Assembly (NCBI GenBank): GCA_029242745.1
Contig: JAQWTI010000011.1
Span: 1 to 64,000, forward strand
Direction of reading: 5' to 3'
DNA length: 64,000 nucleotides
Source: Acidimicrobiales bacterium
Lineage (GTDB): Bacteria > Actinomycetota > Acidimicrobiia > Acidimicrobiales > MedAcidi-G1
In this document: piece after piece, positions 21,336 through 29,233 of the stretch
Layout of the letters: every line of letters starts with the position of its first letter
Numbering within the stretch: the stretch's first letter is position 1
The notes under the pieces: generated by a model
Told to the model about the DNA's origin: nothing
Database searches by the model: none
Seen by the model: only the letters and a program-made list of their open reading frames with translations
Made by a program: the position numbers and the translations under genes

Positions 21336-22082
21336 TCAGCCCTCACCAAGGTAGGAGGCACGCAACTCAGGATTAGCCAAAAGAGCTTCTGCTGTATCGT
21401 CTAGCACTACCCGACCGGTCTGAAGCACCCAGCCCCGGTCGGCAATTGAGAGCGCCATGTTGGCGTTCTGCTCAACCATGAAGATCGCCACACCATCAGA
21501 GTGGATCTGCTGAATCAACTCAAAGTTCTGCTGCACGAGTGCTGGGGCAAGCCCCATCGACGGCTCATCCATCAGGAGCACCCTCGGACGGGACATGAGT
21601 GCACGACCGATGGCCACCATCTGCTGTTCACCACCGGACAGCGTGCCGGACTTCTGGGACAAGCGTTCCTTAACCCTCGGGAACAACCCGTAGATCTTCT
21701 CTAAATCCTCGGCGATGCCTTCCTTGTCGTTGCGGAGATAGGCACCCAACTCAAGGTTCTCCTTAACCGACAGACGCTTGAACAAGCGACGATTCTCCGG
21801 AACCATGGTCACACCATTAACAACCCTGTAACTCGTCGGCTTATTGTTGACCACCTCGCCATCAAGCACTACTTCACCTGAGGTAGGAGTAACCATGCCG
21901 AGCAGAGTCTTGAGCGTTGTCGATTTTCCCGAAGCATTACCACCTAGCAAACAGACCAACTCACCAGGATAGATGGCTAGGTCCACATCCTTCAGAATAT
22001 GGACCGCACCATAATGAGTGTTGACCTGTCGGAACTCCAACAGTGCCGTGACATCCTTTGGAGAACCGTTATCACTGCTCAT
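21336..22082 (-). CDS. livF: Branched-chain amino-acid ABC transporter ATP-binding protein LivF
   Basis: A 248-residue ABC ATPase. Walker A is GGNASGKSTT (an Ala-Ser variant of the usual NGAGKT), the signature is LSGGEQQMVAIGRAL, and Walker B is LLMDEPSMGLAP. The LivF-specific VEQNANMALSIADRGWVLQ motif is present near the C-terminus. Last gene of the livHMGF operon; it overlaps livG by the ATGA pattern. It energises uptake through LivH and LivM. Confidence 0.92.
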   Translation of the reverse strand: MSSDNGSPKDVTALLEFRQVNTHYGAVHILKDVDLAIYPGELVCLLGGNASGKSTTLKTLLGMVTPTSGEVVLDGEVVNNKPTSYRVVNGVTMVPENRRLFKRLSVKENLELGAYLRNDKEGIAEDLEKIYGLFPRVKERLSQKSGTLSGGEQQMVAIGRALMSRPRVLLMDEPSMGLAPALVQQNFELIQQIHSDGVAIFMVEQNANMALSIADRGWVLQTGRVVLDDTAEALLANPELRASYLGEG

Positions 22083-22861
22083 CGAGCCTCCACCGGGCGG
22101 CCAAGGTAGGCCTCGACGACGTCGGGGTTGTTCGACACCTCGTCGTACGAACCCTGAGCGATAGGTACCCCGTGATCGAGCACCACGACCCGGTCCGAGA
22201 CGTCCTTAACCACTTTCATATCGTGTTCAATCATCACGATGGTGAACCCCCATTCACTCCGCAGACGTCCGATAAGCGCAGTCAACTCAGCAGTTTCTAT
22301 AGGATTCATCCCTGCTACCGGCTCGTCGAGTAGTAAGAGTTGAGGTTGAGTGGCCATAGCACGAGCTATCTCCAAGCGGCGTCTATTTGCGTACGACAGC
22401 GCAAAAGCCGGTTGATCCATTCGGTAACCAACAAGACGGTGGCCAAAAAATCCGAGAATCTCCTCAGCCCGTTCCCTTATCTCTCGCTCTTCCTGTTTGA
22501 AGGCTCTCGTCTGAAACAGGGCACCATAAAGCAACTGCCTAGTCCGACAGTGCTGAGCCACCATGACGTTTTCCAAGATTGTCATGTTCGGGAAAAGCCG
22601 TACGTTCTGAAAGGTACGAGCGATGCCCAGCGAGGTCACGGTGCTGGGATCCAATCCCACAATCGATTCCCCCTCGAAAAACATGTCGCCATCCGTGGGA
22701 GTCACTAGTCCGGAGATGGCGTTGAAGAACGTGGTCTTGCCGGCCCCGTTGGGCCCAATGACGCTAACGATCTCACCTTTATCGATATGGAAGTTCAGCC
22801 CGGATAAGGCATCAAGGCCACCGAAGGTGATCTGTAGGTCTTTAATCTCGAGAAGTCTCAT
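22079..22861 (-). CDS. livG: Branched-chain amino-acid ABC transporter ATP-binding protein LivG
   Basis: A 260-residue ABC ATPase with Walker A GPNGAGKTTFFN near residue 36, the LivG-type signature LSYANRRRLEIARAM and Walker B LLLDEPVAGMNP. The following IVMIEHDMKVVKDVSDRV and the C-terminal VVEAYLGR are characteristic of LivG. It overlaps livM upstream and livF downstream by 4 bases each. Together with LivF it forms the ATPase pair of the transporter. Confidence 0.92.
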   Translation of the reverse strand: MRLLEIKDLQITFGGLDALSGLNFHIDKGEIVSVIGPNGAGKTTFFNAISGLVTPTDGDMFFEGESIVGLDPSTVTSLGIARTFQNVRLFPNMTILENVMVAQHCRTRQLLYGALFQTRAFKQEEREIRERAEEILGFFGHRLVGYRMDQPAFALSYANRRRLEIARAMATQPQLLLLDEPVAGMNPIETAELTALIGRLRSEWGFTIVMIEHDMKVVKDVSDRVVVLDHGVPIAQGSYDEVSNNPDVVEAYLGRPVEAR

Positions 22862-24669
22862 CTTGACTCCTCTTCGACATGGCCCGTTTCGATCTCGTCA
22901 TCATCAATCCCGAGTTTGTCTCCCTTAAGCCAAGCATCTTGCAGAAACTCGTCTTGGTGGAGTTCCCGGCTACGACGGGCGCTCGGAACGAGACCCTCGG
23001 GCCGTTTCAACATCATGAATACCAAAAGAATTCCGTAAATCAGCAACTTGAAATTCTGAAACTCCTGAAGAAGACCCGGCTGTTTGGGGCCACCCAAGAC
23101 GCCGATCAGAACAACTGACCCAACGAGCACCCCTGCGATGTTGCCCATACCGCCCACGATCACCACCACAAGAATGATGATTGATACAAGGATCATGAAG
23201 GATGTGGGGAAGATCGAGCCGACCTTGGCGGCCAGTACAGCTCCACTAAAGGCGGCCAGCACCGCACCGACCACAAACGCCATCAACTTGGCGCTGACCG
23301 TGTTGATTCCCATGGCCTCCGCCACCTGCTCGTCTTCGCGTATGGCCATCCATGCTCGGCCCAGCCGAGATGCCTGCAGACGCCAGGAGACATAGATTGC
23401 GATGACGCAGAAAAACAACACTAGGTAAAAGACCGACCTTGGGTCGGTGCCCTTCACAGTGGCGAAGCCAAGATCGACTCCAGGGACATTGGTGATGCCC
23501 TGGGCACCCCCAAAATACGGACCAAGCCAGTCCGACATGAAGAGTAAGCGAATAATCTCACCGAAGCCAAGAGTCACGATGGCCAAATAGTCGCCGCGCA
23601 TCCGTATGACCGGTGCTCCAATGATCAGACCAACGATCGCCGCAAAGATAACTACGAAGATAAGACTGACGCCGAAGTGCAACTCGGGTGCGAACCAAGG
23701 ACTGTTTGGCGAGGTCAAGACGGCTGTGGTGTAGCCCCCGACTGCGAAAAAGGCCACGTAACCGAGATCCAGCAGTCCGGCCAGGCCGACAACGATATTC
23801 AGTCCGAGGGCTAGGAGCAGGAATATTCCAACGTTGGCTAGCAACTCATTCATGATCTTGCCGAGGAATATCGGTAAGACGATGCACAACACGGCAACCA
23901 CGGCAAACAGGACTATCGAGGCCTTCTGGCGCTCCATTCCTTCCATCTCGCGGTACCGGTTAGTCACCGCCTTGACTCGACCGTCGGTGAGCGCCGCGAC
24001 CACGGCCATGACTATGCCGACCACTAAAGCCGACGTAAGCGTTAGGCCACCCTTTTTGGCATAGATCAAGTCAGCCAGCCACTCCAGACGAAAACCCTCC
24101 GAAAGATCCGAGACCGCTGACTCGAGAACTGAGAGGGCCAACAAACCCATTAGAACGATCGCCACTACTCGCCGAACTACCCGTGGCACCACATGCAGTG
24201 AAGCCCCGGCCAGACCAAGGACTCCACAAGTAATGATCCAGGCACCGGCCCCGAAGCCCATCCCATTCTCGTAAGTCAGAAATCTTAGAAGTTTAGGGCT
24301 CCAGTTGACCAACGGATCCCTGAGGTTCCACGAGTCCAGCGCAACCATCAGTAGCGACAAACCTCCGCCACCTAGGACTCCGACCAGCAAGCCGGTCACT
24401 AAGTCGTACAGGCCCTGCTTGCGGGATTCAAAGCCTTCTAGCACTATCTGCGTGGCGGCGACCCACCCTGCGCAGATAGGCACCAACAGCACCGAGACAT
24501 AACCCAAACTGAGATAGCGCTCAACAATCTCCCGTCTATCAAGTTCGACGGGCATACCGACCAGGCAGAGTGCTATGAGGCTCCCACCACAGATCAACCC
24601 CCAGCGAAAGACCTTTCGCCAGTCTTGGTGCAGGGCCGAAGACGGCAGCAAGGCGGCAGCGGCGCTCAT
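22858..24669 (-). CDS. livM: Branched-chain amino-acid ABC transporter permease LivM with large N-terminal extension
   Basis: A 603-residue permease, about twice the size of a typical LivM. The C-terminal half (from about residue 245) is the standard permease domain, with GLNIVVGLAGLLDLGYVAFF, the GAPVIRMRGDYLAIVTLGFGE loop, and a long C-terminal tail. The N-terminal 240 residues add about six more hydrophobic segments and have no family I can name. The ATG at 24669 overlaps the livH stop (ATGA), so the whole length is probably translated. Function: one of two membrane halves of a polar or branched amino-acid importer. No periplasmic binding protein gene is present in the window. Confidence 0.88.
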   Translation of the reverse strand: MSAAAALLPSSALHQDWRKVFRWGLICGGSLIALCLVGMPVELDRREIVERYLSLGYVSVLLVPICAGWVAATQIVLEGFESRKQGLYDLVTGLLVGVLGGGGLSLLMVALDSWNLRDPLVNWSPKLLRFLTYENGMGFGAGAWIITCGVLGLAGASLHVVPRVVRRVVAIVLMGLLALSVLESAVSDLSEGFRLEWLADLIYAKKGGLTLTSALVVGIVMAVVAALTDGRVKAVTNRYREMEGMERQKASIVLFAVVAVLCIVLPIFLGKIMNELLANVGIFLLLALGLNIVVGLAGLLDLGYVAFFAVGGYTTAVLTSPNSPWFAPELHFGVSLIFVVIFAAIVGLIIGAPVIRMRGDYLAIVTLGFGEIIRLLFMSDWLGPYFGGAQGITNVPGVDLGFATVKGTDPRSVFYLVLFFCVIAIYVSWRLQASRLGRAWMAIREDEQVAEAMGINTVSAKLMAFVVGAVLAAFSGAVLAAKVGSIFPTSFMILVSIIILVVVIVGGMGNIAGVLVGSVVLIGVLGGPKQPGLLQEFQNFKLLIYGILLVFMMLKRPEGLVPSARRSRELHQDEFLQDAWLKGDKLGIDDDEIETGHVEEESR

Positions 24670-25817
24670 GCCCGGTCCTCCGACGAGAGTCGTTCTCCAA
24701 AGAGCCCGGAAGGCCTGAACAGCAGAACCAGAACCAGAACGGTGAAAGCCACCGCATCTTTCAACTGAGACACACCAGGAACCCCAAGTGGTTCAAGAAT
24801 AATCAGCGGAGCGATGGACTCTGCAGAACCCAAAGAGATTCCTCCAGCCATGGCTCCACCAAGGTTGCCGATACCCCCAACCACTGCAGCGGTGAACGCC
24901 TTGACCCCGGGTAGGAAACCAGTCATATGGGTAACCGAGCGGAACATCAAGCCCCACAGGATGCCCCCAACGCCGGCCATAGCCCCACCCACAGCAAACG
25001 TGGTGACAATAGTGCGATTCACATCAATGCCCATCAGGGCAGCGATCTCCTTATCTTCTGCGACCGCCCGCATAGCCTTACCGGTCTTGGTGCGCTCCAC
25101 GAAGTACCAGAGGGCTGTCATTGAAACAGCGGCCACTGCCAGCACCAACAAGCGGGTACCAGCAATCTCAAACGTAAAGATTGACCGCTGTTTGGAAAGC
25201 CACTCCGGCAGGCGTGGGTAACTCTTGGTTGCTGGTCCGAAGAGGCCAAGCACAAAGTTCTGGATAAAAAACGAAACGCCTATCGAAGTGATCAGAGGAA
25301 TCAATCGGGGCGAACTGCGCAGTGGTCGGTAGGCCACTCGCTCCATCACCACTGCGGTGAACGTCGAGAAAAAGATCGCCATAACAATGATGAGGGCCAA
25401 GCAAAGCAAGAAGTTGGATTCCCACATCCCGTTGGCCTGGAACTTATCCGAAGCGATGAAACCAGTCATCGCACCAACCATGAACACTTCACCGTGGGCG
25501 AAGTTGATGAAACCCAACACGCCGTAAACCATTGAGTATCCCAATGCGATCAACCCATACATCGAACCCTGCGAGAGACCTGAAACAATCAACCCCTTGA
25601 ACTGGTCTCCGGTGAGCCCTCGAGCCCCGGGGTTCCGCCACCGGGCGAACGGATTATCAGCATCGATCTGCTGCCATATGAAGGCCAAGAACCCGACGAC
25701 AATCATGGTCACCAGAAAGATCCTGATGAACGTGAGAAATCGGTCGACCGAAATTAGTCGCTTCACGGGATTCGTCGAGATGGTATGCGCTGACACAGGT
25801 CCTCCATCTGACGTCAT
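24666..25817 (-). CDS. livH: Branched-chain amino-acid ABC transporter permease LivH
   Basis: A 383-residue permease. The core (from about residue 75) has the LivH landmarks GLSQGSMYGLIALGYSMVYG, INFAHGEVFMVGA and GGIGNLGGAMAGG. An extra N-terminal region of about 75 residues contains one hydrophobic segment (IFLVTMIVVGFLAFIW). First gene of livHMGF; the promoter should lie in the 90-base divergent region shared with the aminotransferase gene. ATG at 25817 is used here, but a GTG at 25796 preceded by GGAGG is a possible alternative. Confidence 0.88.
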   Translation of the reverse strand: MTSDGGPVSAHTISTNPVKRLISVDRFLTFIRIFLVTMIVVGFLAFIWQQIDADNPFARWRNPGARGLTGDQFKGLIVSGLSQGSMYGLIALGYSMVYGVLGFINFAHGEVFMVGAMTGFIASDKFQANGMWESNFLLCLALIIVMAIFFSTFTAVVMERVAYRPLRSSPRLIPLITSIGVSFFIQNFVLGLFGPATKSYPRLPEWLSKQRSIFTFEIAGTRLLVLAVAAVSMTALWYFVERTKTGKAMRAVAEDKEIAALMGIDVNRTIVTTFAVGGAMAGVGGILWGLMFRSVTHMTGFLPGVKAFTAAVVGGIGNLGGAMAGGISLGSAESIAPLIILEPLGVPGVSQLKDAVAFTVLVLVLLFRPSGLFGERLSSEDRA

Positions 25818-25907: not shown

Positions 25908-26846
25908 GTGATTGAAACCGGACTGGGGACCGAACCCCGCAGCACTCATCAAGCCCTCACTGACGAAAGGAACGCCACGGTCGAGATTTGGATCAATGGA
26001 GAGTTCTTCCCCCGCAACGAAGCGAAGGTGTCAGTCTTCGACAGTGGGTTCCTTGTTGGTGACGGGGTCTGGGAAGGACTTCGGCTGCACCACGGGAACT
26101 TCGCTTTTCTGGATCGCCATCTAGACCGGCTATTCAGTGGCCTAGCAGCCACCGATATTGGTCTGGGTATGACCCGCGACGAGGTGACAACTGCACTTCG
26201 AACAGTCGTGGATCACAATGACATGCACGACAATGTGCATATCCGACTTATGGTCACGCGTGGTGACAAGAAAACGCCTTCGCAGCACCCCTCGAACTGC
26301 GTGGGCGGGCCAAACATCGTCATTATCGCTGAACATAAAGCCGCCGATCCGGCGGTGCTCGCGTCGGGCATCTCGTTGTTCACCACCACGGTCCGGCGAC
26401 CACCACCAGACACCCTCGACCAGCGCCTGAACTGCCACTCCAAGATGCACGAGGTGATTGCCCTCATCCAGGCAGTGGAGGCGGGCGCCGACGAGGCTCT
26501 CATGCTGGACCCGACCGGCGCAGTAGCCACTTGCAACGCCACCAATTTCTTCGTGGTCCGAGAGGGTGGGGTTTGGACCTCAACCGGGCACTACAACCTA
26601 AACGGCATTACAAGACAGTTGGTCCTAGAAATTGCCCCTCAAGCCGGGTTGTCAACCCATGAGAAGCCGTTCTCGCTGACCGACGTCTACGCAGCCGACG
26701 AGGCGTTTGTTACCGGCACGTTCGGCGGACTGACCCCGGTAATTACCGTCGATGGGAGAACTATTGGTGACGGCCAACCAGGCCCGCATACGGCTCAGTT
26801 GCGCGCTCTCTATCAGACGGCTGTGGAAATTGATGTTGCTCCATGA
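25908..26846 (+). CDS. Class IV aminotransferase (branched-chain or D-amino-acid type)
   Basis: A 312-residue PLP fold-type IV aminotransferase. Conserved parts are WINGEFFPRNEAKVSVFDSG, the strand with DGVWEGLRL, the catalytic Lys in NCHSKMHEV (relatives usually have an NY at the first two positions), and the PLP-phosphate region EALMLDPTGAVATCNATN. GTG at 25908 gives about 25 residues more than usual at the N-terminus; no better start is visible. It overlaps the following sulfotransferase-like gene by ATGA and is divergent from the amino-acid transporter, suggesting amino-acid catabolism. Branched-chain, D-amino acid and aminodeoxychorismate-type activities cannot be told apart here. Confidence 0.83.
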   Translation: MIETGLGTEPRSTHQALTDERNATVEIWINGEFFPRNEAKVSVFDSGFLVGDGVWEGLRLHHGNFAFLDRHLDRLFSGLAATDIGLGMTRDEVTTALRTVVDHNDMHDNVHIRLMVTRGDKKTPSQHPSNCVGGPNIVIIAEHKAADPAVLASGISLFTTTVRRPPPDTLDQRLNCHSKMHEVIALIQAVEAGADEALMLDPTGAVATCNATNFFVVREGGVWTSTGHYNLNGITRQLVLEIAPQAGLSTHEKPFSLTDVYAADEAFVTGTFGGLTPVITVDGRTIGDGQPGPHTAQLRALYQTAVEIDVAP

Positions 26847-27562
26847 CCCTCCGCATCAACTGTTGGTCCGGACCTCGCAATATCTCTACCTCCTTCATGT
26901 ACGCCTTCGGCCAACGGTCCGACACGACGGTGGTCGACGAGCCCATCTACGCTCACTACTTACGAGTCACTGGTCGTGAACATCCGGGGAGACTCGAGGT
27001 GTTGGCTAGCCAGGACCACAACGGCGAAGCCGTAGTGCGCGACGTAATTCTCGGTGAGCATTCCACCGCAGTTGTCTTCTTCAAGCAAATGGCCCAACAC
27101 GTTGTGGAACTTGATAGAGATTTTCTGGCGGTCTGTCGCAACATGCTGCTGGTACGTGATCCCGAACGCGTAGTTACGTCTTTTGCCAAAAATGTGCCTG
27201 ACGTAAAAGTTGCTGACACAGGGTTGCCAATCCAGATTGAACTGCTGAAAGCGGTCTTAGATACCGGCGAAAAGCCAATCGTTGTTGACGCTGCGGCGCT
27301 GTTGGCCTCACCCGAAGCAATGTTGAGAGTGTTGTGCCGAGAACTAGACCTAGCCTTCGATCCAGCGATGTTGTCATGGCCCGCTGGCCCCAAGCCAGAA
27401 GATGGCGTGTGGGCCAAACACTGGTACGCCAGCACCCATAAGGCCACTGGATTCGAGCCCGGCAGACCAAGTACAGAAGCTCCTCCCAGTTACCTGCGAC
27501 CAGTAGTCGAAGAGGCCCGGATCCTCTACGACCAGCTATTGGAGTATGCGCTCACTGTCTGA
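26843..27562 (+). CDS. Sulfotransferase-like P-loop protein
   Basis: A 239-residue protein with the sulfotransferase-type 5'-phosphosulfate loop near the N-terminus (WSGPRNISTSFMYAF) and the 3'-phosphate element LLVRDPERVVTSF near residue 100. It is translationally coupled to the class IV aminotransferase upstream. Plant proteins annotated as branched-chain aminotransferase-like carry this same type of domain fused to an aminotransferase, so the pairing looks functional. The substrate is unknown and true sulfate transfer is not proven. Its 3' end overlaps the 3' end of the opposite-strand aconitase X small subunit by 37 bases. Confidence 0.75.
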   Translation: MTLRINCWSGPRNISTSFMYAFGQRSDTTVVDEPIYAHYLRVTGREHPGRLEVLASQDHNGEAVVRDVILGEHSTAVVFFKQMAQHVVELDRDFLAVCRNMLLVRDPERVVTSFAKNVPDVKVADTGLPIQIELLKAVLDTGEKPIVVDAAALLASPEAMLRVLCRELDLAFDPAMLSWPAGPKPEDGVWAKHWYASTHKATGFEPGRPSTEAPPSYLRPVVEEARILYDQLLEYALTV

Positions 27563-27972
27563 CCCACGACCCCGACTCGGATTCCTGTGTGGAGGTCATT
27601 AAAGGCGTCTTCAGCCAGTATCACCACGGGAATAAGAAGCCCGTATAGTTCGTCAGCCACTATGGCACCCAAAGCGATGATTTCGTCGGGGGCCTCCATG
27701 ATGATGGCTGCCGGCCCTGTTCCGGCCCGAGCCGATTCACACAACGTGCTACTAGCCGAACTGGAACCCCGGCCTGACGGCATGACGAGCACCCTGTCGG
27801 TGACCAACTCATTGACCTCAGGGTGGCGGCGGTCGATGATTCTTCCGGTCATCGGATCGAGGCCACCGTAGAAACTGAGTGGTTCACTAAGTCGCAGAAC
27901 CTCACCATCCGCCTCACCGGCCACCATTACTCGCCCAATTTCTGACCATTCAAGTTTTTGTTCCTCAGCCAC
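27526..27972 (-). CDS. Aconitase X small (swivel) subunit
   Basis: A 148-residue DUF126-type swivelling domain. The hallmark is VLVMPSGRGSSSAS, with PEVNELVTDR before it and APDEIIALGAIVADELYG-like C-terminal strands. Together with the large subunit it forms aconitase X, a dehydratase group known to act on mevalonate 5-phosphate in archaea and on cis-3-hydroxy-L-proline in bacteria. I chose GTG at 27972, which has GAGGAG about ten bases upstream and overlaps the large subunit stop by 8 bases. Amino-acid context here favours the hydroxyproline-type activity, as inference only. Confidence 0.83.
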   Translation of the reverse strand: MAEEQKLEWSEIGRVMVAGEADGEVLRLSEPLSFYGGLDPMTGRIIDRRHPEVNELVTDRVLVMPSGRGSSSASSTLCESARAGTGPAAIIMEAPDEIIALGAIVADELYGLLIPVVILAEDAFNDLHTGIRVGVVGQTVSAYSNSWS

Positions 27973-29233
27973 GAGTCCAGATCTCCTCATCCCGGACTAC
28001 CCGTCCAATGACTGCCGACTCCACACAGTCTTCGGTGCTCCCGAACACCACCTCGACGCCAAGGTTCCCTGGGGCGTAGTAGGCCCATTTGGCCGAGTCG
28101 GTCATTGTCGTACCGACCGTGTCCTCGATGATCGGCGTGATATAGGTGCAGGTATCGGTGACCACCTGAATGCCAGCACCGGCTAAGCGGTCGGCCCAAC
28201 CCCTTAACCGGATCTCAGAAAAGATGTCTCGTCCTGTGGAGGCATAAACAACCACACCCGGGTGGACCTGCCGGTCCCCCAGCACTTCCAAGAGGTGACC
28301 GAATTCAGCCACTGAATAGTGCGGAGTACCTAGGCTCACCGTACGTAACCGGTCATCACTGGTCGTGCTTAGGTGGTCTCGTGCCAAACGAAGGTGCTCA
28401 GGGCCGATTCGAAACTCCGCATCCGGGGATCGGCCACCCAGCGCAACTTCCAGTGTCGGGGCCTCCGGCGTACTACCCACGACGTGAAACAAACCGACGC
28501 TGCCAGTAGTAGCCGCAGCTGCTCCCAAAGCCTTAAGCCTGTCCTCACCAACGCCTACCGGAAGGCCTGTAATGACCGGAACGGCCTTGCCCACCAAAGG
28601 CCCCAACAGGCCTCCCAGCACCGGGTAGAGGACGTCCCGGTTGAGCAGCCCGTCGGATACTCCGGCAAGTTCGACAACGACGGTGGCGTGGCGATTATCG
28701 TCTAGGTGCAACCCCGCTGCCGGTGCTCGGCCGGTAATCGCACAACAAATGTCGATGAAATCTCCATACCGATGTGTACGAGCTCCAAGCACCGAATTGG
28801 CAAAGACGATGGCGTTGGATTCTGCCCATGCCACGTGATCACCAAAGGCCGGTCGCATCTCAAGTTGGTAGGGAGCGCACGTCCAGGTGGGCTGACAACC
28901 CATTTCCTCAAAACGTTTCATAAGGCGGCGCGCTAGACCAGCTGTCTCAGGGTCACCCCGGTAGAGCTCAGGGTGAATGAGGTCCAGCGATGACACATTG
29001 AGTGTGGTCGGTACAGTCACCTGGGCCCCACCATCAGCGAGTCGATCAGCGAAATCCAAGACCGCAGGCCCGAGGTAGAGGCACGAGTCGATATGAGCAC
29101 CGACGACATCCAGCAACTTTTCGGCCTCCATCGCCTCAGCCGCTCGGGTCACAACCCGCATTGCCAAGGCCACCGAAGGGCCTTCTTCGCCGGCTAAGCG
29201 GGCGGCGTCACGCTCATCTAGTTTGACCGTCAC
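27965..29233 (-). CDS. Aconitase X large subunit
   Basis: A 422-residue DUF521/AcnX catalytic subunit. Family signatures are AVLDFADRLADGGAQV near residue 60, AWAESNAIVFANSVLGARTHRYGD near 135-160 (Asn, Ser and Arg of the active site), and the C-terminal TDTCTYITPI with the cysteine that holds the iron centre. It dehydrates a hydroxylated substrate using an iron or iron-sulfur centre. GTG start at 29233. Encoded upstream of, and overlapping, the small subunit gene. A nearby proline racemase or pyrroline-2-carboxylate reductase, which would prove the cis-3-hydroxyproline route, is not in the window. Confidence 0.85.
   Translation of the reverse strand: MTVKLDERDAARLAGEEGPSVALAMRVVTRAAEAMEAEKLLDVVGAHIDSCLYLGPAVLDFADRLADGGAQVTVPTTLNVSSLDLIHPELYRGDPETAGLARRLMKRFEEMGCQPTWTCAPYQLEMRPAFGDHVAWAESNAIVFANSVLGARTHRYGDFIDICCAITGRAPAAGLHLDDNRHATVVVELAGVSDGLLNRDVLYPVLGGLLGPLVGKAVPVITGLPVGVGEDRLKALGAAAATTGSVGLFHVVGSTPEAPTLEVALGGRSPDAEFRIGPEHLRLARDHLSTTSDDRLRTVSLGTPHYSVAEFGHLLEVLGDRQVHPGVVVYASTGRDIFSEIRLRGWADRLAGAGIQVVTDTCTYITPIIEDTVGTTMTDSAKWAYYAPGNLGVEVVFGSTEDCVESAVIGRVVRDEEIWTRG

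Follow-up and report, generated by a model that had tools for sequence, protein, structure and literature searches.

A lysine-free aminotransferase-like protein and its sulfotransferase partner: a probable undescribed sulfation system in bacteria

In the genome of an Acidimicrobiales bacterium, a two-gene operon encodes an aminotransferase-like protein (AT) and a sulfotransferase (ST), and the AT/ST pair probably forms a sulfation system that has not been described before, not a pathway for amino-group transfer. As judged by alignment, the binding site of the AT protein is conserved and the residue for transamination is gone. The evidence comes from the residues of the two proteins, from the association of their genes across several phyla, and from two bacterial proteins in which both domains are fused.

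The gene pair and the residues of its aminotransferase-like protein

Both open reading frames were confirmed on the plus strand, at 25908–26846 and 26843–27562 of the window (the whole stretch of DNA analysed, 64,000 nucleotides), and the preliminary description was right that they overlap by ATGA:

25908–26846, plus strand: AT gene, 312 aa, GTG start, class IV/fold type IV, Asn type, no Schiff-base lysine (PF01063; nearest PDB entries 7z79/9j32)
26843–27562, plus strand: ST gene, 239 aa, AT-linked Sulfotransfer_5 subfamily (PF19798; PAPS-sulfotransferase fold)
26843–26846, plus strand: ATGA overlap of four bases, AT stop and ST start, read from the bases

In Pfam, the AT protein matched PF01063 (Aminotran_4) with an E value of 4.3e-41 and the ST matched PF19798 (Sulfotransfer_5) with an E value of 1.7e-47; NCBIfam had no model above its own cut-off for either. 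The initial identification of a class IV aminotransferase next to a sulfotransferase-like gene is correct for both domains, but the AT is no normal aminotransferase, as it carries Asn175. The genome to which the window belongs holds one Sulfotransfer_5 match and four class IV matches, the window AT among them. Two of the other class IV proteins retain both the lysine and the glutamate of the active site; the fourth match (L085) was missed by the HMM and stands outside the residue typing.

The positions that set the AT protein apart, and those that it shares with the E. coli branched-chain aminotransferase IlvE, are the following:

26238–26246, plus strand: His111-x-Arg113, both residues in 197/197 relatives; the carboxylate contacts of IlvE here are Tyr96-x-Arg98
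26430–26432, plus strand: Asn175 (codon AAC), where IlvE has its PLP-binding lysine, Lys160, from alignments, bases read
26529–26531, plus strand: Thr208 (codon ACT), where IlvE has its pyridine-nitrogen Glu, Glu194, from the alignment, bases read
26604–26612, plus strand: Gly233-Ile234-Thr235, the kept PLP-phosphate cup (IlvE G220, I221, T222), from the alignment

Arg74 of the phosphate cup (IlvE R60) is likewise retained in the window AT. Residues were counted, in IlvE numbering, over 197 distinct AT proteins, 122 of the Asn type and 75 of the His type. At the Lys160 site, Asn was found in 122 and His in 75, while lysine was found in none, which speaks against the earlier reading of the first protein as a working aminotransferase. 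The phosphate contacts R60, G220, and T222 were unchanged in all 197 proteins and R98 was kept in all; T258 was Thr or Ser throughout, and Y96 was replaced by His in every case. The two types differ at Glu194, which is Thr or Ser in 122/122 Asn-type proteins and Glu in 75/75 His-type proteins, and at Y165, which is Lys or Arg in the Asn type and Leu or Gln in the His type. Of 29 class IV proteins outside this set, 16 showed K at the K160 column; the column is misaligned for part of them, as some subfamilies have the lysine displaced by one position (seen in L153, L163, and L164). In section 14 of PMC9309667, the lysine is described as absolutely conserved in catalytically active aminotransferases and the acidic residue as essential for the forward reaction; the roles given above for the IlvE phosphate-cup and carboxylate residues come from the same section.

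Among solved structures, 7z79 and 9j32 (1e-95) were the best relatives of the AT, with true branched-chain aminotransferases far behind. According to the PDB titles, 7z79 is an 'aminotransferase-like protein from Variovorax paradoxus' and 9j32 is the N174K mutant of that protein. Aligned to the Schiff-base lysine of 5mqz are Asn175 in the window AT, Asn in 7z79, and Lys in 9j32. The Variovorax protein, with Asn at the lysine site, falls in the same Asn-type lysine-less clade as the window AT; it is known as a lone protein, whereas the window AT has an ST partner. Among its near relatives by motif, the AT occurs without an ST in four genomes (G459, G551, G476, and G624) and with an ST in four others (G303, G411, G482, and G484). 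The branched-chain aminotransferases 5mqz, 5e25, and IlvE have the fold and the PLP-phosphate cup in common with the window AT, but they carry the Schiff-base Lys and the pyridine-nitrogen Glu, both absent from the window AT, and have no ST partner.

In an AT tree of 80 rows, for which the Lys column was kept, the lysine-less ATs (62 rows) lay on one side of a branch (100/99). This side splits into an Asn clade of 38 rows, including 7z79, and a His clade of 24 rows. The 18 other class IV rows, with neither Asn nor His at the Lys column and with long branches among them, stood apart. Identity between the window AT and a His-type AT is 42%, and the model of a His-type relative gave 9j32, 7z79, and 5mqz as structural matches. 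ColD is a precedent for PLP/PMP enzymes with a Lys-to-His replacement; this precedent was not found in the open-access literature searched.

Association of the two genes across bacteria

Scanning species genomes with the ST yielded 249 encoding stretches, of which the best 80 were analysed. An Asn-type AT lay upstream of the ST in 36 of these best 80 loci and a His-type AT downstream in another 36; the remainder comprised one AT fragment at a contig end and seven loci without an AT. No lysine-bearing AT was found as an ST neighbour in the best 80 of 249 loci, and in L016, L017, L019, and L020 a lysine-bearing AT lies several kilobases off. All 38 strong STs in the relatives of the window's own genome were AT-adjacent: the 36 read at first gave 35 Asn-type ATs and one that was cut off, and the last two (L409 and L410) also had an adjacent AT.

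After identical sequences were removed, 216 distinct STs remained, 199 of them full-length members of the strong class and 17 weak paralogues; the cut for the ST subfamily was an HMM score of 200 of our own choosing, and no sequence scored between 130 and 200. A typed AT on the same strand was adjacent in 173 of the 199 full-length STs, a contig-cut AT fragment was present in 3, and no AT was found in the stretch in 23. The gap between AT and ST was at most 100 bases in 148/173. Pairs occur in Acidimicrobiia, Bacteroidota, Planctomycetota, Pseudomonadota, Chloroflexota, and others, so that the suggested search for further bacterial pairs was rewarded in several phyla. This adjacency, together with two ST-AT fusions, supports the functional coupling of AT and ST that the preliminary description had proposed. 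Counted over distinct STs, Asn-type pairs were ordered AT-ST in 101 cases and ST-AT in 2, and His-type pairs were ordered ST-AT in all 70. Gene order is therefore a near but incomplete marker of AT type, and its use as a strict marker was rejected because of the two Asn-type ST-AT pairs. For 21 of the 23 STs without an adjacent AT (12 in Pseudomonadota, 4 in Planctomycetota, and 5 in others), a lysine-less AT was encoded elsewhere in the genome; none was found in the genomes of the other two (L022 and L036).

At the genome level, with an ST cut of 200 bits, three phyla comprising 790 genomes were surveyed. The ST was present in 112 genomes, all with a lysine-less AT (in one as a contig-end fragment only). 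The AT was present in 119, seven of which lacked an ST (G159, G257, G459, G476, G498, G551, and G624); in G459, the AT without ST lies on a contig of 4.9 Mb. AT type could be read in 118/119 genomes, 71 Asn and 47 His. In Bacteroidota (198 genomes), the ST was found in 26, the lysine-less AT in 28, and both in 26. The figures for Pseudomonadota (397 genomes) were 46 at 200 bits (G654 being of the solo type, described below), 50, and 45, respectively, with a Fisher p value for co-occurrence of 1.7e-52, ignoring relatedness. In Planctomycetota (195 genomes), 41 had an ST, and the 40 with a typed lysine-less AT all fell within the 41; in the 41st (G753) the AT is cut by the contig end (L383), and its Lys-site residue lies outside the fragment. 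Nine further Planctomycetota AT matches all retain Lys, and none has an ST. These counts exclude 7/33 Bacteroidota genomes with an ST match and the weak Pseudomonadota matches; G654 (208 bits, L266) was of the solo type, as were G561 (160 bits) and six further copies (L402–L408).

The genes around the pair vary. Divergent upstream of it in the window, at 21336–25817 on the minus strand, are genes of a branched-chain-type (liv-type) ABC transporter with two PF02653 permeases and two ATPases. Downstream, on the opposite strand at 27526–29233 (minus), is a split aconitase X (AcnX) with swivel-domain and catalytic-domain genes (PF01989 and PF04412). In the 14 nearest loci (L002–L015), AcnX lies downstream in 14/14 and the liv-type transporter upstream in 12/14; in L016–L021, neither was found flanking the pair. 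The neighbourhood was considered as a clue to the substrate and set aside, as gene clustering in the best 80 loci left only the pair conserved beyond close kin. Operon mates at 135 loci, where only representatives were searched for domains, included ABC transporters, aldehyde dehydrogenase, adenine deaminase with AMP nucleosidase, SnoaL-like proteins, class I/II aminotransferase, and P450, and from this variety no single pathway emerges.

Several of these settings can be described individually. In L259 and L270, where the AT lies away from an ST, genes for an ABC-transporter permease and ATPase stand beside the AT. In L259 and the two loci that cluster with it, L260 and L263, all from genomes without an ST, the lysine-less AT stands in a row with another ABC transporter's genes. 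Such transporter neighbours hint at an imported amino-acid-like compound. In L278, L280, L281, and L300, an ST or an AT-ST pair is followed by genes that cluster with adenine deaminase and AMP nucleosidase; these might salvage the adenine nucleotide that remains of PAPS, or their presence might be chance. Genes for a class I/II aminotransferase (NF005334, above cut-off) and a SnoaL-like protein precede AT-ST in L313, L323, L326, L327, and others. The AT of L265 is followed by genes for a GntR-type regulator, a TctC-type receptor, and an amidohydrolase, and the AT-ST pair of L309 by a cytochrome P450 gene.

The sulfotransferase, the fused forms and the plant proteins

Three segments of the ST were compared between 199 AT-linked STs and 14 solo Sulfotransfer_5 STs:

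26867–26890, plus strand: ST residues 9–16, SGPRNIST, P-loop-type segment, with P11, R12, and S15 in every ST of both sets (199 linked, 14 solo)
27155–27181, plus strand: ST Arg105 to Ser113, with Arg105 invariant (199/199) and Ser113 in 195/199 linked STs
27401–27427, plus strand: ST residues 187–195, DGVWAKHWY, which separates AT-linked from solo Sulfotransfer_5 STs, with G188 and Y195 in 199/199 linked STs

We take the P-loop-type segment to have a role in PAPS binding, and the Arg105/Ser113 pair presumably has a 3'-phosphate role, as in SULTs. Invariant across all linked and solo STs were P11, R12, S15, E33, P34, K81, R105, and P107. D32, Y36, M83, H86, and G188 were invariant in the 199 linked STs and rare or not among the commonest residues in the 14 solo STs; G188 was not among the three commonest there, and Y195 was present in 1/14. 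The exact pattern DGVWAxHWY was found in only 126/199 linked STs. An AlphaFold model of the ST (pLDDT 93) had as its nearest folds TPST1, TPST2, and the olefin-synthase and curacin sulfotransferases, with Z scores of 14–15, rmsd of 3.6–4.1, 207–221 aligned residues, and 14–16% identity. We infer that the ST transfers sulfate from PAPS. To our knowledge, no AT partner has been described for the nearest solved folds, the TPSTs (5wrj and 3ap1) and the curacin/olefin-synthase ST domains (4gbm and 4gox).

The solo paralogues, among them L116–L120, L123–L131, L135, and L402–L408, had an AT neighbour in 0/24 cases (17 weak paralogues plus the seven L402–L408) and represent a separate, apparently undescribed subfamily. 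They have the Pfam family and P11, R12, S15, E33, K81, and R105 in common with the linked STs but form a separate clade and lack the D32, Y36, H86, and DGVWAxHWY features. In an ST tree, 13 solo paralogues formed one group, and STs with Asn-type and His-type partners were intermixed. The possibility that each AT type has its own ST lineage was rejected, as the Asn-partnered STs do not form one clade (AU p 6.8e-9, in a separate tree of 58 rows). Since the two kinds are mixed, a single ST subfamily serves either AT type, and an exchangeable residue at the lysine site under one ST subfamily argues against a precise catalytic role for that residue.

A fused form of the two domains, which the preliminary description had pointed to in plants, was found in bacteria. 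Of the 627 ORFs that matched above 100 bits, with repeats counted, both domains occur together in two: L331 (G813) and L335 (G860), Planctomycetota ST-AT fusions of 534 and 533 aa counted from the ST start, both of the His type. Sulfotransfer_5 spans residues 4–235 in L331 and 4–233 in L335, and Aminotran_4 spans 280–505. The ST part of L331 and the window ST share 54% identity.

In the Arabidopsis branched-chain aminotransferase (BCAT)-like proteins 1 and 2 (At3g05190 and At5g27410), about 555 aa long, a class IV aminotransferase part comes after a sulfotransferase-type part. The bacterial fusions (533–534 aa) match them in ST-AT order and in length; the plant proteins form one chain in this order, whereas the window genes are split and ordered AT-ST. 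Because the plant order is mostly that of the His type, we consider the His type likelier than the Asn type of the window to be the bacterial counterpart of the plant proteins. No paper on this AT/ST pair or on its relation to plants was found in the open-access literature searched. In the passages available, PMC12506393 used PF19798 in a search of plants and named no fusion, PMC11625862 merely lists the PF19798 family, and PMC4867686 concerns a different plant sulfotransferase.

The function of the pair

A supply of PAPS can be traced through APS kinase, the PAPS-making enzyme. The window's own genome has two matches to it, and in Bacteroidota (matches above 100 bits) it was found in 25/26 pair-bearing genomes versus 43/172 others. 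APS kinase was not found in five pair-bearing relatives of the own genome (G003, G007, G013, G019, and G025), which are estimated to be 77–97% complete, nor was it found in G193.

Our best explanation, to which we assign a probability of about 0.45, is that the operon encodes two parts of one sulfation system: a PAPS-dependent ST, and a lysine-free partner of the PLP fold that binds or supplies the substrate. The process would run as follows. The lysine-less AT would bind a carboxylate-bearing, amino-acid-like substrate, and PLP or PMP (or the phosphate of the ligand itself) would probably be held non-covalently in the retained phosphate cup. The AT would make, hold, or position the molecule, and the ST would then sulfate it with sulfate from PAPS; no ordinary transamination by the AT would take place. 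The AT most likely acts before the ST, because some genomes have the AT and no ST, while an ST lacking the AT is hardly ever seen.

The main rival, which we hold to be less likely, treats the AT-like protein purely as a pseudoenzyme: without catalysis and with no need of PLP, it would be a subunit that serves the ST as scaffold or regulator. The absence of the Schiff-base lysine in 197/197 proteins and the loss of the pyridine-nitrogen Glu in the 122 Asn-type proteins would fit such a subunit, as would the exchange of Asn and His types under the same ST subfamily, the ST-AT fusions, and the adjacency of the genes. However, the invariant cofactor cup, His111, and Arg113 go beyond what a scaffold needs, and seven genomes, including G459 with its 4.9 Mb contig, have the AT without any ST. 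A bolder and quite improbable reading is that the pair is a sulfation-elimination enzyme: the ST would sulfate an amino or carboxylic acid that bears a hydroxyl group, and the lysine-free partner, with non-covalent PLP or PMP, would help to eliminate the sulfate. On this reading, the BCAT-like proteins of plants would unite the two parts of that enzyme in a single chain. In curacin and olefin-synthase biosynthesis, sulfotransferases prepare a hydroxyl for elimination by sulfating it, and serine O-sulfate reportedly inactivates aspartate aminotransferase, going by the title of a 1982 study cited in PMC9127364. A partner without the lysine could then process O-sulfo amino acids such as serine O-sulfate safely.

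Two further explanations keep the AT as an enzyme of the ordinary kind. It might still be a transaminase or another PLP enzyme that uses a different lysine as its Schiff base, for example Lys179, four residues on, with the ST modifying the product. Lys or Arg does stand at window position 179 in 122/122 Asn-type proteins, but in 8 of these it is Arg, and in the His type the position is held by Leu or Gln. In addition, the deposited N174K mutant 9j32 indicates by its title that others took the Asn as the missing Lys, and the conservation of that Lys in active aminotransferases, as stated in PMC9309667, points the same way; we consider this explanation very unlikely. The chance pairing of an ordinary branched-chain aminotransferase with an unrelated sulfotransferase would draw on the conservation of genes beyond the pair among close kin only, and on the four-base overlap, as such overlaps are common in bacterial operons. 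It is hardly credible given that 173/199 STs are AT-adjacent, in both gene orders and in several phyla, that co-occurrence in the 397 Pseudomonadota genomes is so strong (ignoring relatedness), that two fusions exist, and that the lysine is absent.

The pairing has consequences for the proteins on either side of it. A lysine-less 'aminotransferase' known as an orphan crystal structure gains a conserved partner, and so a function that can be tested, and we suggest that genes of the lysine-less clade that carry the name aminotransferase are misnamed. For the plant proteins of unclear function, candidate fused counterparts from bacteria are now at hand. Finally, the spread of the pair over phyla implies a sulfated metabolite or intermediate that the literature searched does not link to these genes.
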